Shown piece after piece: positions 30,518 through 39,067 of a DNA stretch of 41,679 nucleotides (the first letter of the stretch is position 1; each line of letters starts with the position of its first letter). The translations under genes and the position numbers were made by a program. The stretch is from assembly GCF_021864505.1 (NCBI RefSeq), contig NZ_JAKJIB010000008.1, positions 1-41,679 of the forward strand. Reading direction: 5' to 3'. Origin of the DNA: Falsiroseomonas oryziterrae (lineage in GTDB: Bacteria > Pseudomonadota > Alphaproteobacteria > Acetobacterales > Acetobacteraceae). The notes beneath the pieces are model-generated. The model saw only the letters and a list, made by a program, of their open reading frames with translations, searched no databases and was not told where the DNA came from.

Positions 30518-31231
30518 CTACTGCTCGACGTCGAGGGCGTAGCCGGCGGACCGCACCGTGCGGATCACGTCCGGCTGCCCATCGCCGTTCACCGCCTTGC
30601 GGAGCCGGCGGATATGGACGTCGACGGTGCGCGGCTCGACATGGATGTCGCGGCCCCAGACCGCGTCCAACAGCTGTTCGCGCGAGAAGACCCGGCCGGG
30701 GTGCTGGAGGAAGAATTCCAGCAGGCGATACTCGGTGGGGCCGAGGTGCAGCGGCTTGCCGGCCCGCGTCACGCGGTGGGCATCCTGGTCCATCACGATG
30801 TCCTGCCAGGTGATCCGGCCCTTGACCGGCGTCGCGCCGGAGCGGCGGAGCAGCGCGCGGATGCGCGCCAGCAGCGCCTCCATCGCGAAGGGCTTGGCGA
30901 TGTAGTCGTCGGCCCCGGTGTCGAGCGCGCGCACTGCGTCCTGGTCCTCGGTGCGGGCGGTGACCATGATGATCGGCAGGTCGCGCGTGGCGGGGCGGCG
31001 GCGGATCTGTCGGCAGACCTCGATGCCCGACATGGCCGGCAGCATCCAGTCGAGCAGGATGAGGTCGGGCCGGGTTTCCGCGACCCGGAGCAGGGCCTCC
31101 TGCCCGTCCGTCGCCTCCTCGACCCGGAAGCCCTGCTTCTCGAGGTTGTAGCGCAGCAGGGTCAGAAGCGGCGCCTCGTCCTCGACCACGAGGATGATCG
31201 GCTTGGCGAGGTTGCCGGTGGCGTCGGGCAT
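30518..31231 (-). CDS. phoB: Phosphate regulon response regulator PhoB
   Basis: This 237-residue OmpR-type regulator has a receiver domain with acidic pocket VEDEA (16-20), phosphoacceptor Asp61 in LILLDWMLPAMSG, Thr91 and Lys113 (IAKPF). The C-terminal winged helix has LGPTEYRLLEFFLQHPGRVFSREQLLDAVWG and VDVHIRRLRKAVN. As the last gene of pstSCAB-phoU-phoB it is identified as PhoB by context as well as sequence. It would activate the operon through the Pho box at 35979-36006 when phosphate is low. The histidine kinase phoR, often adjacent, is not in the window. Confidence 0.95.
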   Translation of the reverse strand: MPDATGNLAKPIILVVEDEAPLLTLLRYNLEKQGFRVEEATDGQEALLRVAETRPDLILLDWMLPAMSGIEVCRQIRRRPATRDLPIIMVTARTEDQDAVRALDTGADDYIAKPFAMEALLARIRALLRRSGATPVKGRITWQDIVMDQDAHRVTRAGKPLHLGPTEYRLLEFFLQHPGRVFSREQLLDAVWGRDIHVEPRTVDVHIRRLRKAVNGDGQPDVIRTVRSAGYALDVEQ

Positions 31232-34824: not shown

Positions 34825-35889
34825 TCAGGCGACCGGCCAGAGTGCCTCGCGGCCGGGCCCGCGGACGTTCTGCGCCCAGGCCGCGCGCACGGCGTCGTGG
34901 ACGTTGGCCGGCAGCGGGATGTACTCCAGGCGCTGCGCGGTCTGGCTGCCGTTGCGGAAGGCCCAGTCGAAGAAGCGCATCGTGTTGCGGCTCGCCGCCA
35001 GGCGATCGGCCGGCGGGTTGGTCGGCAGCAGGATGTAGGTCGGCGAGGTGATCGGCCAGACCGTGGCGCCGTTCAGGTCGATCGTGTCGGCGGCGAAGTT
35101 CGGCACGGTCCAGTCCGCGGCGGCGGCCGTGGCCTGGAAGGCCGGCGGCTCCGGACGGACGAAGTTGCCCGACTTGTTGCGGATCTGCGTGGTCGGCATG
35201 CGGTTCACCACCGCATAGGCGTTCTCGATGTAGCCGATCGTGCCCGGCGTGTTGCGGATGATGTTCGACACGCCTTCGTTGCCGCGGGCGCCGTTGCCGA
35301 CCGGCCAGCGCACGCTGGTGCCCGCGCCCGGCCCATCGCGCCACTCGTTCGAGATGCGCGAGAGATAGGTGGTGAAGACCCAGGTCGTGCCCGAGCCGTC
35401 GGCGCGGTAGGCGACGCTGAGCGGCAGGTTCGGGATGCGAAGCTCGCGGTTCACCTCCGCGATGCGCGGGTCGTTCCAGCGCGTGATCCGGCCGAAGAAG
35501 ATGTCGGCGATGATCTCGGGCGTCAGGCGCAGCGCGTTGTCGGCGACGCCCGGCAGGTTGGCGCTCAGCACCACCGAACCCATGACGGTCGGGAACTGGA
35601 GCAGGTTGCGCTCCGCCAGCTGCGCCGTCGGTAGCGGCGCGTCGGAGGCGCCGAAATCGACGGTGCGCGCGGTGATCTGGTTGATGCCGCCGCCCGAGCC
35701 GATCGACTGGTAGTTCAGGCTGACGCCGATGGCCTGTTGGGCCTCCTGGGCCCACCGCTCGTAGAGCGGGCGGGGGAAGGTCGCGCCGGCGCCGGTGATG
35801 GTCGCCTGCTGCGCGAAGGCGCGATGCGGGAGCGCGAGGCTCGCGCCGAGGGCCGCACCAGTGCCGAGCAGAAGGGTCCGCCTGTTCAC
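34825..35889 (-). CDS. pstS: Phosphate ABC transporter substrate-binding protein PstS
   Basis: This 354-residue protein is read from GTG 35889, with GGAG eight bases upstream; the frame is open to an ATG at 36033, but the extra 48 residues do not look like a leader. A twin-arginine-like signal (NRRTLLLGTGAALGASLALP) ends near HRAFAQ. The mature part has TITGAGATFPRPLYERW, YQSIGSGGGINQI, VDFGASDAPL and RADGSGTTWVFTTYLS, the phosphate-binding segments of PstS. It delivers phosphate to PstCAB and heads the operon behind a Pho box. Confidence 0.96.
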   Translation of the reverse strand: MNRRTLLLGTGAALGASLALPHRAFAQQATITGAGATFPRPLYERWAQEAQQAIGVSLNYQSIGSGGGINQITARTVDFGASDAPLPTAQLAERNLLQFPTVMGSVVLSANLPGVADNALRLTPEIIADIFFGRITRWNDPRIAEVNRELRIPNLPLSVAYRADGSGTTWVFTTYLSRISNEWRDGPGAGTSVRWPVGNGARGNEGVSNIIRNTPGTIGYIENAYAVVNRMPTTQIRNKSGNFVRPEPPAFQATAAAADWTVPNFAADTIDLNGATVWPITSPTYILLPTNPPADRLAASRNTMRFFDWAFRNGSQTAQRLEYIPLPANVHDAVRAAWAQNVRGPGREALWPVA

Positions 35890-35978
35890 GCTGTCATCTC
35901 CGCTGTCTGCCGTGTCGGGACTCCGCGACGGGGGTGCGGCGTCCGGCGCGCCATCTAGGCCCGCCGGGCGACCCCCCG

Positions 35979-36006
35979 ATTTCAGTTTTATGACACTTGG
36001 ATGACA
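35979..36006 (-). promoter_or_regulatory. Pho box upstream of pstS
   Basis: On the minus strand, three half-sites repeat every 11 bases: TGTCATCCAAG, TGTCATAAAAC and TGAAAT. The middle unit with its flanks matches the PhoB consensus CTGTCATAAA(A/T)CTGTCA closely. It lies about 90 bases before the pstS start and is the most AT-rich segment nearby. PhoB, encoded at the end of this operon, should bind here. Confidence 0.85.
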
Positions 36007-36059
36007 TCGATCCGGACGGGCCGGGCGGATCATCCGTATCCGCCCCGCCCTCCGTTAGG

Positions 36060-37985
36060 TCAGCGCGCGCGGCTCTCCGCCAGGTGGTCGAAGCGGTGGC
36101 GGTAGGTGCCGAGACCGAGGGTCTGGCCGCGCAGTTCCAGGATCAGGTCGTGCAGCTCGGCGGCGGGGACCATCGCCTCCACCTCGTCCCAGCCGGGCCG
36201 GCCGGGCGATTCGGCATAGCCGAGGATCTGCCCGCGCCGCCCCGTCAGCAGGCGCTGCGCGGCCGGGGTGAAGGCCTGGGGCACCTGGACCGCGACATGC
36301 TCGACGGGTTCGAGCAGCACCGGGTCGGCCTTGGCCAGTGCCTCCTGCATCGCCATGCGCGTGGCTGTGGCGAAAGCCATGTCGGAACTGTCGACGCTGT
36401 GGAACCCGCCATCCACCAGCGTCACCTCGATGTCCACCACCGGGTTGCCCAGAGGACCCCTGCGCGCCGCCTCCTCCGCCGCCTCGCCGCAGGCGGGGAT
36501 GAATTTGCGGGGGATGGCGCCGCCCACGACCTTGTCCACGAAGGCGAAGCCGGCGCCGCGCGGGCGGGGTGCGACCTCGATCACCACGTCGGCGAACTGG
36601 CCATGGCCGCCGGTCTGGCGCTTGAGCCGCGCATGATGGCGGACCGGGCGGCGGATCGTCTCGCGGAAGGGCACGCGCGGGCGATGCGTGGCGAGCCTGA
36701 CCGTCTGGGTCAGCTTCTCGACCGCAGCGCGCAGGTGCTGCTCGCCCTGGCCGTGCAGCACCGTCTCGCCGGTCTCCGGCATCTGCTCGATGCGGAGCGA
36801 GGGATCCTCCTCGGTCAGCCGGTTCAGGGCGGCGCCCAGCCGGACCTCGTCCTTGCGGTCCTCCGGCTCGATCGCCAGCGAGAAGGTGGGGGCGGGCGGC
36901 TCGGGGAAAGGCAGGCGGCCGCCGCCGAGCGTGTCCCCTGTCGCCGCGCCGTCAAGCCGGCCGAGCGCCACCACCTCGCCCGCCGCGGCTTCCGCGACCT
37001 TGGCCGGCTCGCCGGCGGGGAAGCGCCAGACGCCGCCGATGCGCTGTCCGGACAAACTCGCACCGTCCTTCAGCGCGCCGCGCCAGATCCGGACAAAGGA
37101 CAGCCGCCCCGCATGGCCGGCCTGGACCGTGCGGAAGACCTGCGCAAGCGGCTCGGCTCCGGCCTCCACCCCATGGCGGGCGGCGGTCTCCGCCACCTCC
37201 GGCGCATCGTGGCGCAGCGCCTTCCAGAGGCGGCGCACGCCGGAGGCATGCTCGGCGGCGCCGAACAGCACGCCCATGACATGGCCGGCCGCTTCCTCGG
37301 CATGGAGCGGGCGGTAGAGCGCGGCGGCGTCGGGGGCGCGGTCCTCCACGATCGCCTCCAGCAGCGCGTCGTCGGCATCGGCCAGCGCCTCGGCCAGCGC
37401 GGCGCGGGCCTCGGCCTCCGCCCCGCGCATCGCCTCCGGGAAGGGCGCGGGCTCCGAGGCGGCGCCCTCGCGGAAGCGCCAGGCGCGCTCGCTGATCAGG
37501 TCCACATAGCCGACGACGCGCTCGCCCTCGCGCCAGGGCATCTGGCGCAGCAGCAGGCGGCGGCGGGTCTGGGCCTGCAGCGCCTCCACCAGCTCGCGCG
37601 GCGCGGCGCCGAGCGCGTCGAGCTTGTTGACGAAGAGCACGGCCGGGATGTCGAGTTCCTCCACCATCCGCAGGCAGGGCGCGGCCATGGCGGCGCGGGC
37701 CGGGTCGGGATCCACCACCACGACCGCGATGTCGGCGACCGCGAGCGCGCAGGCGGCCGCGTGGGAGAACTCGATCGAGCCGGGGCAGTCCAGGATCGTC
37801 CAGGGGTCGTCGAGAAAGCTCGCCTGGCCCACCCGCATCTCGGTGCCGCCGTGGTGGGTCCTGCCGTTCGTCGCGCGACGGACCGGCGCGCCGGCGGCGG
37901 CGAGCATGGCGTCGAAGAGCGCTGACTTGCCGCTGCCATAGGGACCGATCAGGGCCGCGACCCTGGGGCCGTGGGTCTGGGACAT
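36060..37985 (-). CDS. Elongation factor G paralogue (translational GTPase family, altered G motifs)
   Basis: This 641-residue protein is shorter than EF-G (about 700). The P-loop is GPYGSGKS (14-21) in place of AHVDHGKT; G3 is DCPGSIEF (66-73) in place of DTPGHVDF, so the catalytic His is Ser70; G4 is NKLD (120-123). EF-G domains II-V follow: VFRTVQAGHAGRLSFVRIWRG, EPEDRKDEVRLGAALNRLTEEDPSL, GGHGQFADVVIEVAPRPRG (domain IV) and LTGRRGQILGY (domain V). Similar paralogues occur in Rhizobiales and relatives under the name elongation factor G (recalled). The loss of His suggests slow or different GTP hydrolysis; its ribosomal role is unknown. It is a stand-alone gene upstream of the Pho regulon and divergent from the lyase gene. 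Confidence 0.88.
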   Translation of the reverse strand: MSQTHGPRVAALIGPYGSGKSALFDAMLAAAGAPVRRATNGRTHHGGTEMRVGQASFLDDPWTILDCPGSIEFSHAAACALAVADIAVVVVDPDPARAAMAAPCLRMVEELDIPAVLFVNKLDALGAAPRELVEALQAQTRRRLLLRQMPWREGERVVGYVDLISERAWRFREGAASEPAPFPEAMRGAEAEARAALAEALADADDALLEAIVEDRAPDAAALYRPLHAEEAAGHVMGVLFGAAEHASGVRRLWKALRHDAPEVAETAARHGVEAGAEPLAQVFRTVQAGHAGRLSFVRIWRGALKDGASLSGQRIGGVWRFPAGEPAKVAEAAAGEVVALGRLDGAATGDTLGGGRLPFPEPPAPTFSLAIEPEDRKDEVRLGAALNRLTEEDPSLRIEQMPETGETVLHGQGEQHLRAAVEKLTQTVRLATHRPRVPFRETIRRPVRHHARLKRQTGGHGQFADVVIEVAPRPRGAGFAFVDKVVGGAIPRKFIPACGEAAEEAARRGPLGNPVVDIEVTLVDGGFHSVDSSDMAFATATRMAMQEALAKADPVLLEPVEHVAVQVPQAFTPAAQRLLTGRRGQILGYAESPGRPGWDEVEAMVPAAELHDLILELRGQTLGLGTYRHRFDHLAESRAR

Positions 37986-38158
37986 GCGCGCCGTCCTCCG
38001 CGGCCTTGGCGGCCGTGCTGTTGGGCGGGCTCCCCGGCGGGCCAGGGGACCCGTTGAAGGGCACGATGACGCAGGGCGCCGCCCGCGGGCGAGCAAAATC
38101 CGCGTTGGGTGGCCGGGGGGCGGGACGCGTGCCAGCCTGGGCGCCGGAGGAGCGCCGC
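37986..38158. promoter_or_regulatory. Divergent intergenic region, EF-G paralogue and lyase genes
   Basis: These 173 bases carry the promoters of two divergent genes. The sequence is GC-rich with a single AT-richer spot (GCAAAATCCGCG near 38092-38103) that could be part of a -10 region. A GGAGGAG ribosome site serves the ATG at 38159. No operator-like inverted repeat is clear by eye. Confidence 0.35.
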
Positions 38159-39067
38159 ATGATCCTGGACCCGGAGCCGACCAGCCCCCTGCCCTCGCCC
38201 GCCGCCCGGCTGCGCCGCGTGCTGGAAGGGCCATCCATCGCCGTTGTCCCCGGCTGCCACGACGCGCTCGGCGCCAGGCTGATCGCCGCGGCCGGTTTCC
38301 CCGCCGCCTTCCTGTCGGGCTACGCCGTCAGCGCCGCGCGGCTCGGCCTGCCGGATGCCGGGCTGGTGTCCTACCGCGAGATGCTGGATGCGGGGCGCGA
38401 GGCCTGCGCCGCCACCGCCATCCCGGTGATCGGCGACGCCGACACCGGCTTCGGCAATCCGGTGAACGTCCGGCGCACGGTCGCGGGCTATCACCAGGTG
38501 GGCTTCGCCTGCGTGATGATCGAGGACCAGGTCTTCCCCAAGCGCTGCGGCTATGCGGCGGGGCTGGAGGTGGCGCCGCGCGAGGAGGCGCTGACGCGGC
38601 TGCGCGCCGCGCTCGAGGCCCGCGACGCGATCCGCCGCGCCGGCGGCGACCTGCTGGTGATCGGCCGTACCGACAGCCGTGCGGCGGCGGGGTTGGAGGA
38701 GGCGCTGTGGCGCGCCGAGGCCTTCGCCGATCTCGGCGCCGACATCGTCTATTTCGAGGCGCCGGCGAGCACGGCGGAGATGGAGGCGCTGCAGCGCGCC
38801 ACGCGCGGCGTGCCGACCATGCTGGCGCAGGTCGAGAAGCCGGGCCGCGTCTTCCTGACGCCGAAGCAGGCGGAGGCGATCGGCTATCGCGTGCTGCTGC
38901 TCGGCGTCACGCTGCTGAACGCGGTGATCAAGGCGCAGAAGGAGGCGCTGGCCCTGATCGCGCGCGGCGAGCATCCCGGGCCGGACCGGCTGATGCCCTT
39001 CGACGAACTCTACGACACCGTGGGCTTCAACGCCTACTACGCGATGGAGAAGCGCTACGCGCCCTGA
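38159..39067 (+). CDS. Isocitrate lyase/PEP mutase superfamily enzyme
   Basis: The product is 302 residues from ATG 38159, with GGAGG about nine bases upstream. Family segments are PGCHDALGARLIAAAGFPA, GDADTGFGNPVNVRRTV (metal ligands Asp93 and Asp95) and MIEDQVFPKRCGY with Glu122 and the active-site Cys130. The canonical KRCGH of methylisocitrate and isocitrate lyases is KRCGY here, a change seen in some oxaloacetate decarboxylase or carboxyvinyl-carboxyphosphonate phosphorylmutase-like members, so C-C lyase activity on a 2-hydroxy or 2-oxo acid is likely but the substrate is open. No prp genes are nearby. It is divergent from the EF-G paralogue and convergent with the flavin oxidase. Confidence 0.9.
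   Translation: MILDPEPTSPLPSPAARLRRVLEGPSIAVVPGCHDALGARLIAAAGFPAAFLSGYAVSAARLGLPDAGLVSYREMLDAGREACAATAIPVIGDADTGFGNPVNVRRTVAGYHQVGFACVMIEDQVFPKRCGYAAGLEVAPREEALTRLRAALEARDAIRRAGGDLLVIGRTDSRAAAGLEEALWRAEAFADLGADIVYFEAPASTAEMEALQRATRGVPTMLAQVEKPGRVFLTPKQAEAIGYRVLLLGVTLLNAVIKAQKEALALIARGEHPGPDRLMPFDELYDTVGFNAYYAMEKRYAP

Follow-up and report, generated by a model that had tools for sequence, protein, structure and literature searches.

An EFG II-type paralogue of elongation factor G in Falsiroseomonas oryziterrae and the class-wide absence of the switch-II histidine in its alphaproteobacterial relatives

The genome of Falsiroseomonas oryziterrae encodes, besides a canonical elongation factor G (EF-G), a second EF-G-like protein in which the histidine of switch II is replaced with serine, and the question raised by this locus is whether such a factor still hydrolyzes GTP and what it might do on the ribosome. 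The gene is located in a 41,679-nucleotide stretch of contig NZ_JAKJIB010000008.1 (hereinafter the window, the whole of the DNA that was analysed), where it occupies positions 36060..37985 (stop codon included) on the minus strand, with the ATG start codon at 37985, the stop codon ending at 36060, an intact frame and a GGAGGA sequence 8 bases ahead of the ATG. A first-pass annotation of this DNA gave the correct coordinates but did not mention the strand. The fusA2-like product (641 aa) scores 859.6 bits against the NCBIfam model NF009379 “elongation factor G” (cut-off 513), and all five Pfam domains, GTP_EFTU, EF-G_D2, EFG_III, EFG_IV and EFG_C, are detected above the respective cut-offs, although EF-G_D2 (domain II) barely passes (27.8 bits vs. 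a cut-off of 27); the original description of the gene as an EF-G paralogue with domains II to V present is thereby borne out. The AlphaFold model of the protein (mean pLDDT 81.3, pTM 0.79) aligns with EF-G chains along the entire length in fold comparison, but the pLDDT of switch I (residues 34-46) is below 50, so that the geometry of the active site around Ser70 is not readable from the model. The nearest two named relatives are found in Roseomonas species (87 and 81% identity).

The two F. oryziterrae proteins belong to the same family but differ in the signature motifs of the G domain. The canonical EF-G (L002), which is encoded on another contig of the genome searched (97.7% complete) and shows 34% identity to the paralogue over residues 57-635, contains AHIDAGKT in the P-loop along with RGITI and DTPGHIDF. 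By contrast, alignment places in the paralogue (all features on the minus strand) the P-loop (G1) GPYGSGKS at residues 14-21 (37923..37946), where the first Gly corresponds to Ala in EF-G; HHGGT, the remnant of switch I (G2), at residues 44-48 (37842..37856), in place of the RGITI that is present in 4 of the 4 canonical EF-Gs aligned; switch II (G3) DCPGSIEF at residues 66-73 (37767..37790); and the guanine specificity motif (G4) NKLD at residues 120-123 (37617..37628). Ser70 (codon 37776..37778) aligns with His87 of Thermus thermophilus EF-G, a position that is occupied by His in all four canonical EF-Gs. In domain IV, the loop QTGGHGQ spans residues 457-463 (36597..36617), and His529 (codon 36399..36401) is the equivalent of T. 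thermophilus EF-G His573. Translation and alignment thus confirm the initially reported P-loop and G3 sequences, Ser70 included. The loss of the G2 motif, with Gly47 in the position of the Mg-coordinating Thr of switch I, was absent from that annotation. Two residues past this position is Glu49 (codon 37839-37841), where canonical EF-G has Thr. The motif set of canonical EF-G (EFG I), AHxDxGKT, RGITI and DTPGH, is not found in the paralogue, and its scores are below the cut-offs of both the canonical EF-G model TIGR00484 (342.9 vs. 659.4 bits) and the tetracycline ribosomal protection protein family NF012153 (185.4 vs. 775 bits).

In the description of the EFG II subfamily by Margus et al. (2011; PMC3150367), RGITI is lost, DxPG is retained and 13 signature positions are tabulated, 9 of which (G14, L23, T286, R343, D205, V239, L253, K455 and G589) are present in the paralogue. 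Among the type I positions (1WDT numbering), Gly16, Leu25, Thr291 and Lys/Arg352 correspond to G14, L23, T286 and R343 (the P-loop motif served to map the former two onto the 1wdt numbering, and T. thermophilus EF-G1 the latter two), whereas Ser61 and Gly333 are replaced with G47 and A324. In EFG II, these two positions are conserved at 76% and 98%, respectively, and the R/HxMS/GV pattern of one sub-subgroup permits Gly at position 61 (PMC3150367); A324 sits in a gapped stretch modelled with low confidence. Among the type II positions, D216, V250, L264, K471 and G603 are matched by D205, V239, L253, K455 and G589, whereas K472 and E513 are replaced with R456 (conservatively) and G500. Because T. 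thermophilus EF-G1 also has the equivalents of D205, V239, L253 and G589, but not of G14, L23, T286, R343 and K455, the weight of the subfamily assignment falls on the latter five positions. In a tree of 116 sequences built with a quick method, 112 EFG II proteins, all of them alphaproteobacterial, split from 4 canonical EF-Gs with an SH-aLRT value of 100. With EF-G domains I-V, no RGITI and a tree position apart from EFG I, the gene is, by the sequence features available, an EFG II-type EF-G paralogue from the alphaproteobacterial group of a known subfamily. It resembles the alphaproteobacterial/cyanobacterial sub-subgroup of Margus et al. in having five domains, in the loss of RGITI and in the retention of G1, G3 (DxPG) and G4, and departs from the published EFG II in having Gly47 instead of the subfamily Ser, as well as Ala324 and Gly500.

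How far the replacement of the histidine extends was assessed across Alphaproteobacteria. EFG II matches (E 1e-90) were obtained in 83 of 200 genomes of Acetobacteraceae, the family of F. oryziterrae, and in 102 of 289 genomes of the class; when 299 genomes of the phylum were searched, all 37 listed matches above 700 bits came from Alphaproteobacteria, and the next score was 552. This gap (from 717 to 552 bits among the matches listed), together with the motifs, was used to separate EFG II from canonical EF-G. The NF009379 model was rejected as a discriminator: its “equivalog” cut-off of 513 is passed by matches in other classes, three of which (L260-L262) contain RGITI and DTPGHVDF and hence are canonical EF-Gs, so that this model does not split EFG I from EFG II. 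After identical sequences were merged, the final set, including the paralogue itself, consisted of 251 distinct alphaproteobacterial EFG II sequences and is biased to Acetobacteraceae and Rhodobacterales. Left out were L001, which is the window itself, L003, L004 and L054, which have no matching ORF of at least 400 aa, 5 matches from the family (four truncated and one with an internal stop) and 11 rows from the class (canonical EF-G and genes that were truncated or split); of the frame-broken L053, only the first piece entered the alignment. One record (L029) is titled Nocardioides marinus, an actinobacterium, but has EFG II motifs nearly the same as those of the Leisingera rows, and the title is probably wrong.

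Residue 70 is not His in any of the 251 sequences (Ser 193, Gly 42, Ala 11, Pro 2, and Leu, Asn and Thr 1 each), and a small residue (Ser, Gly or Ala) occupies this position in 246 of them. The 112 EFG II members of the thinned 116-row set (below 68% identity) have Ser in 88 cases, Gly in 14, Ala in 6, other residues in 4, and no His. The residue labels need 14 changes on the tree compared to a mean of 27.3 in shuffles, and 11 of the 14 Gly rows form a single clade, mostly Rhodobacterales; Rhodobacter capsulatus (L028, L052) has the Gly version. In the Rhodobacterales loci (L015-L053), G3 drifts to DIAGG, DVVGG, ECAGG and similar sequences and switch I is shortened, with G4 and domain IV intact. 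As far as the motifs indicate, the loss of the putative hydrolysis site in this clade is more advanced than in the paralogue of the window. Most members of this class-wide group without His thus carry serine, which is not peculiar to F. oryziterrae. The first-pass annotation, which had proposed that conservation of Ser70 be checked among alphaproteobacterial paralogues, was reasonable in its interpretation but presented as special to this gene what turns out to be a rule of the subfamily, and the rule is the absence of His and the preference for a small residue rather than a strict requirement for Ser. The existence of the EFG II subfamily, which is poorly understood, was already known. In the motif section of Margus et al. 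(PMC3150367), G3 is given only as DxPG; the word “histidine” does not occur in the main text, and “his” at the start of a word occurs three times. Among the titles and abstract openings listed in text searches of open-licence papers, none states the class-wide lack of the switch-II His.

The remaining sites of the 251 sequences follow two different regimes. The first Gly of the P-loop and the GK pair are each present in 250 sequences (one row is gapped), the Asp of G3 in 248, and the Asn and Asp of G4 in 251 and 243, respectively; in domain IV, His529 is found in 250 sequences (one gap), as are Q457 and G459-G460 of the loop (250 each). By contrast, the Mg-ligand position of switch I is occupied by Thr or Ser in only 133 of the 251 (Ser 101, Thr 32) and has neither in 118. 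Among the domains, conservation is highest in domain IV, where 39 of 118 columns reach 0.9 or above, compared to 14 of 123 in the G domain. The dN/dS values of the paralogue (Nei-Gojobori method, own script) are 0.18 vs. L005, 0.115 vs. L006 and 0.15 vs. L055, and domain IV gives the lowest value in all three comparisons (0.07 vs. L005, the nearest named relative), the G domain and domain III evolving faster. A value of 0.56 vs. L056 was discarded because the silent divergence was about that of much nearer relatives, which was taken as composition bias. Nucleotide binding and the reach to the decoding site hence look strongly constrained, whereas the hydrolysis apparatus does not, a pattern that would be expected if GTP served the factor as a ligand.

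Several characterized EFG II proteins provide points of comparison, and the switch-II His is absent in all four EFG II lineages seen. Among PDB chains, the first 140 residues of the paralogue are matched best by that of 7uvp, which has DCPGS in G3. The PDB sequence file gives this chain, like that of 8dmf, the name “Tetracycline resistance protein TetQ”. However, the 7uvp piece matches best the NCBIfam family EFG2_Bacteroid (241 bits over 134 residues, a piece to which the whole-protein cut-off is not applicable), and 8dmf, with the same sequence, is titled “Cryo-EM structure of the ribosome-bound Bacteroides thetaiotaomicron EF-G2”; furthermore, YGYSV of the chain is the G2 pattern given for the Bacteroidetes EFG II (PMC3150367). 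The B. thetaiotaomicron EF-G2 (NF058620) shares with the paralogue the DCPGS sequence in G3 and a GxxGSGK(S/T) P-loop, but is longer (718 vs. 641 aa), and the paralogue, at 259.5 bits, is below the threshold of this Bacteroides-type family (cut-off 1000); the control of the B. thetaiotaomicron factor by BT4338 under carbon starvation has no counterpart shown for the paralogue. One paper cites B. thetaiotaomicron EF-G2 for making translation independent of GTP (PMC10294740), and another cites it as a paralogue of EF-G by which translocation is catalysed with no hydrolysis of GTP (PMC12775393).

T. thermophilus EF-G2 (1wdt), also of the EFG II type and also devoid of the switch-II His, is similar to the paralogue over residues 8-637 (281 bits) but has Tyr rather than Ser in G3 (DAPGYGDF) and keeps Thr in G2 (HRTTV); it is described as a ribosome-dependent GTPase active in poly(Phe) synthesis (PMC9067457, PMC3150367). 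Mycobacterium smegmatis EF-G2 (9k0z; 709 aa), with the P-loop GPSGGGKT, likewise lacks the His and differs from the paralogue in carrying Tyr (DTPGYADF); its QQRSV motif is the pattern listed for the Actinobacteria EFG II (PMC3150367), and it is described as lacking GTPase activity and unable to join elongation or recycling (PMC9067457). Given that, of two factors with Tyr in this position, that of T. thermophilus reportedly hydrolyzes GTP and that of M. smegmatis reportedly does not, the absence of His alone does not settle the activity.

On balance, the paralogue is probably, though by no means firmly, a nucleotide-binding, weakly hydrolysing or non-hydrolysing auxiliary translocation factor. 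The sequence retains the motifs for nucleotide binding as well as the end of domain IV that reaches the decoding site, whereas the Thr of switch I and the His of switch II, which are tied to GTP hydrolysis and phosphate release, are replaced. The protein would bind GTP and the ribosomal A site as EF-G does, this binding would promote translocation or a related rearrangement of the ribosome, and GTP would be hydrolyzed slowly or not at all, so that the paralogue could serve as a low-cost auxiliary factor next to the normal EF-G, by analogy with the Bacteroides EF-G2. With B. thetaiotaomicron EF-G2, which has the same Ser, cited as translocating without hydrolysis, and M. smegmatis EF-G2 reported to have no GTPase activity, slow or absent hydrolysis is plausible. 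The initial suggestion of slow or no hydrolysis accordingly gains plausibility but is not established and cannot be deduced from the residue by itself, as shown by T. thermophilus EF-G2 and by the H91Q variant of E. coli EF-G considered below. Several points count against this explanation. In 2023, Han et al. reportedly assigned the missing GTPase activity of the Bacteroides EF-G2 to a 26-residue region and not to the serine. The activity reported for T. thermophilus EF-G2 in spite of its Tyr, the EFG II positions that fail in the paralogue (Gly47, Ala324 and Gly500) and the presence of four of the nine matched positions in T. thermophilus EF-G1 weigh on the same side, as do the low confidence of the switch-I model and the fact that no biochemistry on alphaproteobacterial EFG II was found in the literature examined. 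M. smegmatis EF-G2, described as unable to join elongation or recycling, further suggests that factors of this kind may lack translocation activity altogether.

The main rival, which we regard as distinctly less probable but a serious contender, is that the paralogue is an ordinary, if slower, ribosome-activated GTPase that couples hydrolysis to translocation, like T. thermophilus EF-G2, the water molecule being positioned without His by the ribosome together with further switch residues, among them perhaps the conserved Glu49. The activity of the T. thermophilus protein, which has Tyr in the position of His, argues for this scenario, as does the retention of Glu49 in 187 of the 251 alphaproteobacterial EFG II. 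In E. coli EF-G, moreover, the H91Q mutant hydrolyzes GTP like the wild type, and the switch-II His may not be catalytic (PMC4532990). In the same study, however, the H91A, H91R and H91E mutants are defective in ribosome-associated hydrolysis, and all H91 mutants, H91Q included, are worse in Pi release (PMC4532990). The Ser, Gly or Ala present in nearly all members of the alphaproteobacterial group offers no side chain like that of Gln or His, and the loss of the Mg-ligand Thr/Ser in 118 of the 251 and the much shorter switch I of the Rhodobacterales rows count against this scenario as well.

Also conceivable, but improbable, is a ribosome-bound factor that does not translocate and functions in hibernation, subunit anti-association or storage, as might be the case for M. 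smegmatis EF-G2, its nucleotide-bound state filling the factor site and blocking or protecting the A site. The model of the paralogue matches both ribosome-bound EF-G2 chains with a TM-score of 0.79, but this match is not specific because canonical ribosome-bound EF-Gs score 0.81-0.84. The near-invariance of the domain IV loop and His529 (250 of 251), which are linked to translocation in EF-G, argues against such a function given that a plain plug has no obvious need for either.

That the paralogue acts in phosphate starvation, as hinted at in the first-pass annotation, and is expressed together with the pst operon appears very improbable when the genomic context is considered. Directly downstream of the paralogue and on the same strand is a pstS-like gene (34825..35889, minus strand) that encodes a PBP-type domain (Pfam) and has a likely GTG start at 35889, as judged from the L005 and L006 proteins; the genes beyond it on the same strand read by eye as pstC, pstA and pstB, the pstS product being the one that was checked, and a response regulator, PhoB-like by its place, is found near the pst genes (30518-31231). 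The pst genes also follow the paralogue in three close relatives, L005, L006 and L055, and in L152, from another genus, pstB and a response regulator are located 2-4 kb upstream on the same strand. However, two other genes separate the paralogue from pstS in L005 and L006. In L005 (7915-8775), Pfam identifies there a STAS-domain protein together with an RsbW-like protein of the partner-switch type (HATPase_c_2); similar STAS and RsbW-like proteins are recognizable by eye in the same place in L006, and the window has no room for them. Among 77 other Acetobacteraceae loci (with flanks from 5 bases to 4 kb), 75 have no pst gene nearby, the two exceptions being L055, from the same genus and with pstS near, and L152.

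The regulatory sequence does not connect the paralogue to phosphate either. Tandem Pho-box-like repeats (35979..36007, minus strand), which belong to the context and not to the factor, are weak matches (2 and 3 mismatches) consisting of three 7-base repeats with 11-base spacing and 2-3 mismatches per pair; they start about 50 bases past the stop codon of the paralogue, and about 90 bases separate their end from the likely start of pstS, a location from which they would drive pstS and not the paralogue. The box itself is tentative given the weakness of the matches: the window contains 4 vs. 1.44 expected, and 8 of 100 shuffles reach four. Upstream of the paralogue, the scan of the window detected no Pho-box-like site, and a single 3-mismatch match lies inside the gene on the other strand. 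The phosphate link was therefore rejected as conserved context, and the hint has support neither from regulatory sequence nor from gene order. A scan of 35800-38300 for sigma-70 promoters and terminators yielded 0 of each, which says little for a GC-rich alphaproteobacterium. Elsewhere in the class, a class I/II aminotransferase gene recurs upstream (46 of 254 loci), as does a molybdopterin oxidoreductase gene downstream (34 of 254; one representative of each was checked by Pfam), but the loci listed (twelve each) are all outside Acetobacteraceae and the arrangement does not hold in the window, so that conserved neighbours provided no functional lead. Finally, decay of the gene to a pseudogene with a drifted active site, which the faster evolution of the G domain and domain III might suggest, is of negligible probability in view of the intact 641-aa frame, the dN/dS of 0.115-0.18 against L005, L006 and L055, and the nearly invariant nucleotide-binding motifs across the class.

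EFG II is a widespread paralogue of bacterial EF-G, and the absence of His across the class sample, combined with a Ser shared with a factor cited as translocating without GTP hydrolysis, would put a sharp biochemical prediction in place of a vague “second EF-G”. A more general possibility, to which we lend only tentative credence, is that a large share of Alphaproteobacteria carry a factor selected to bind GTP without hydrolysis, with the ribosome moved by binding energy alone; in the sequences compared, switch II retains a small residue with no observed return to His, and the nucleotide pocket and the contacts to the decoding site hardly vary. If true, hydrolysis-free translocation would be a common bacterial strategy rather than a speciality of Bacteroides.
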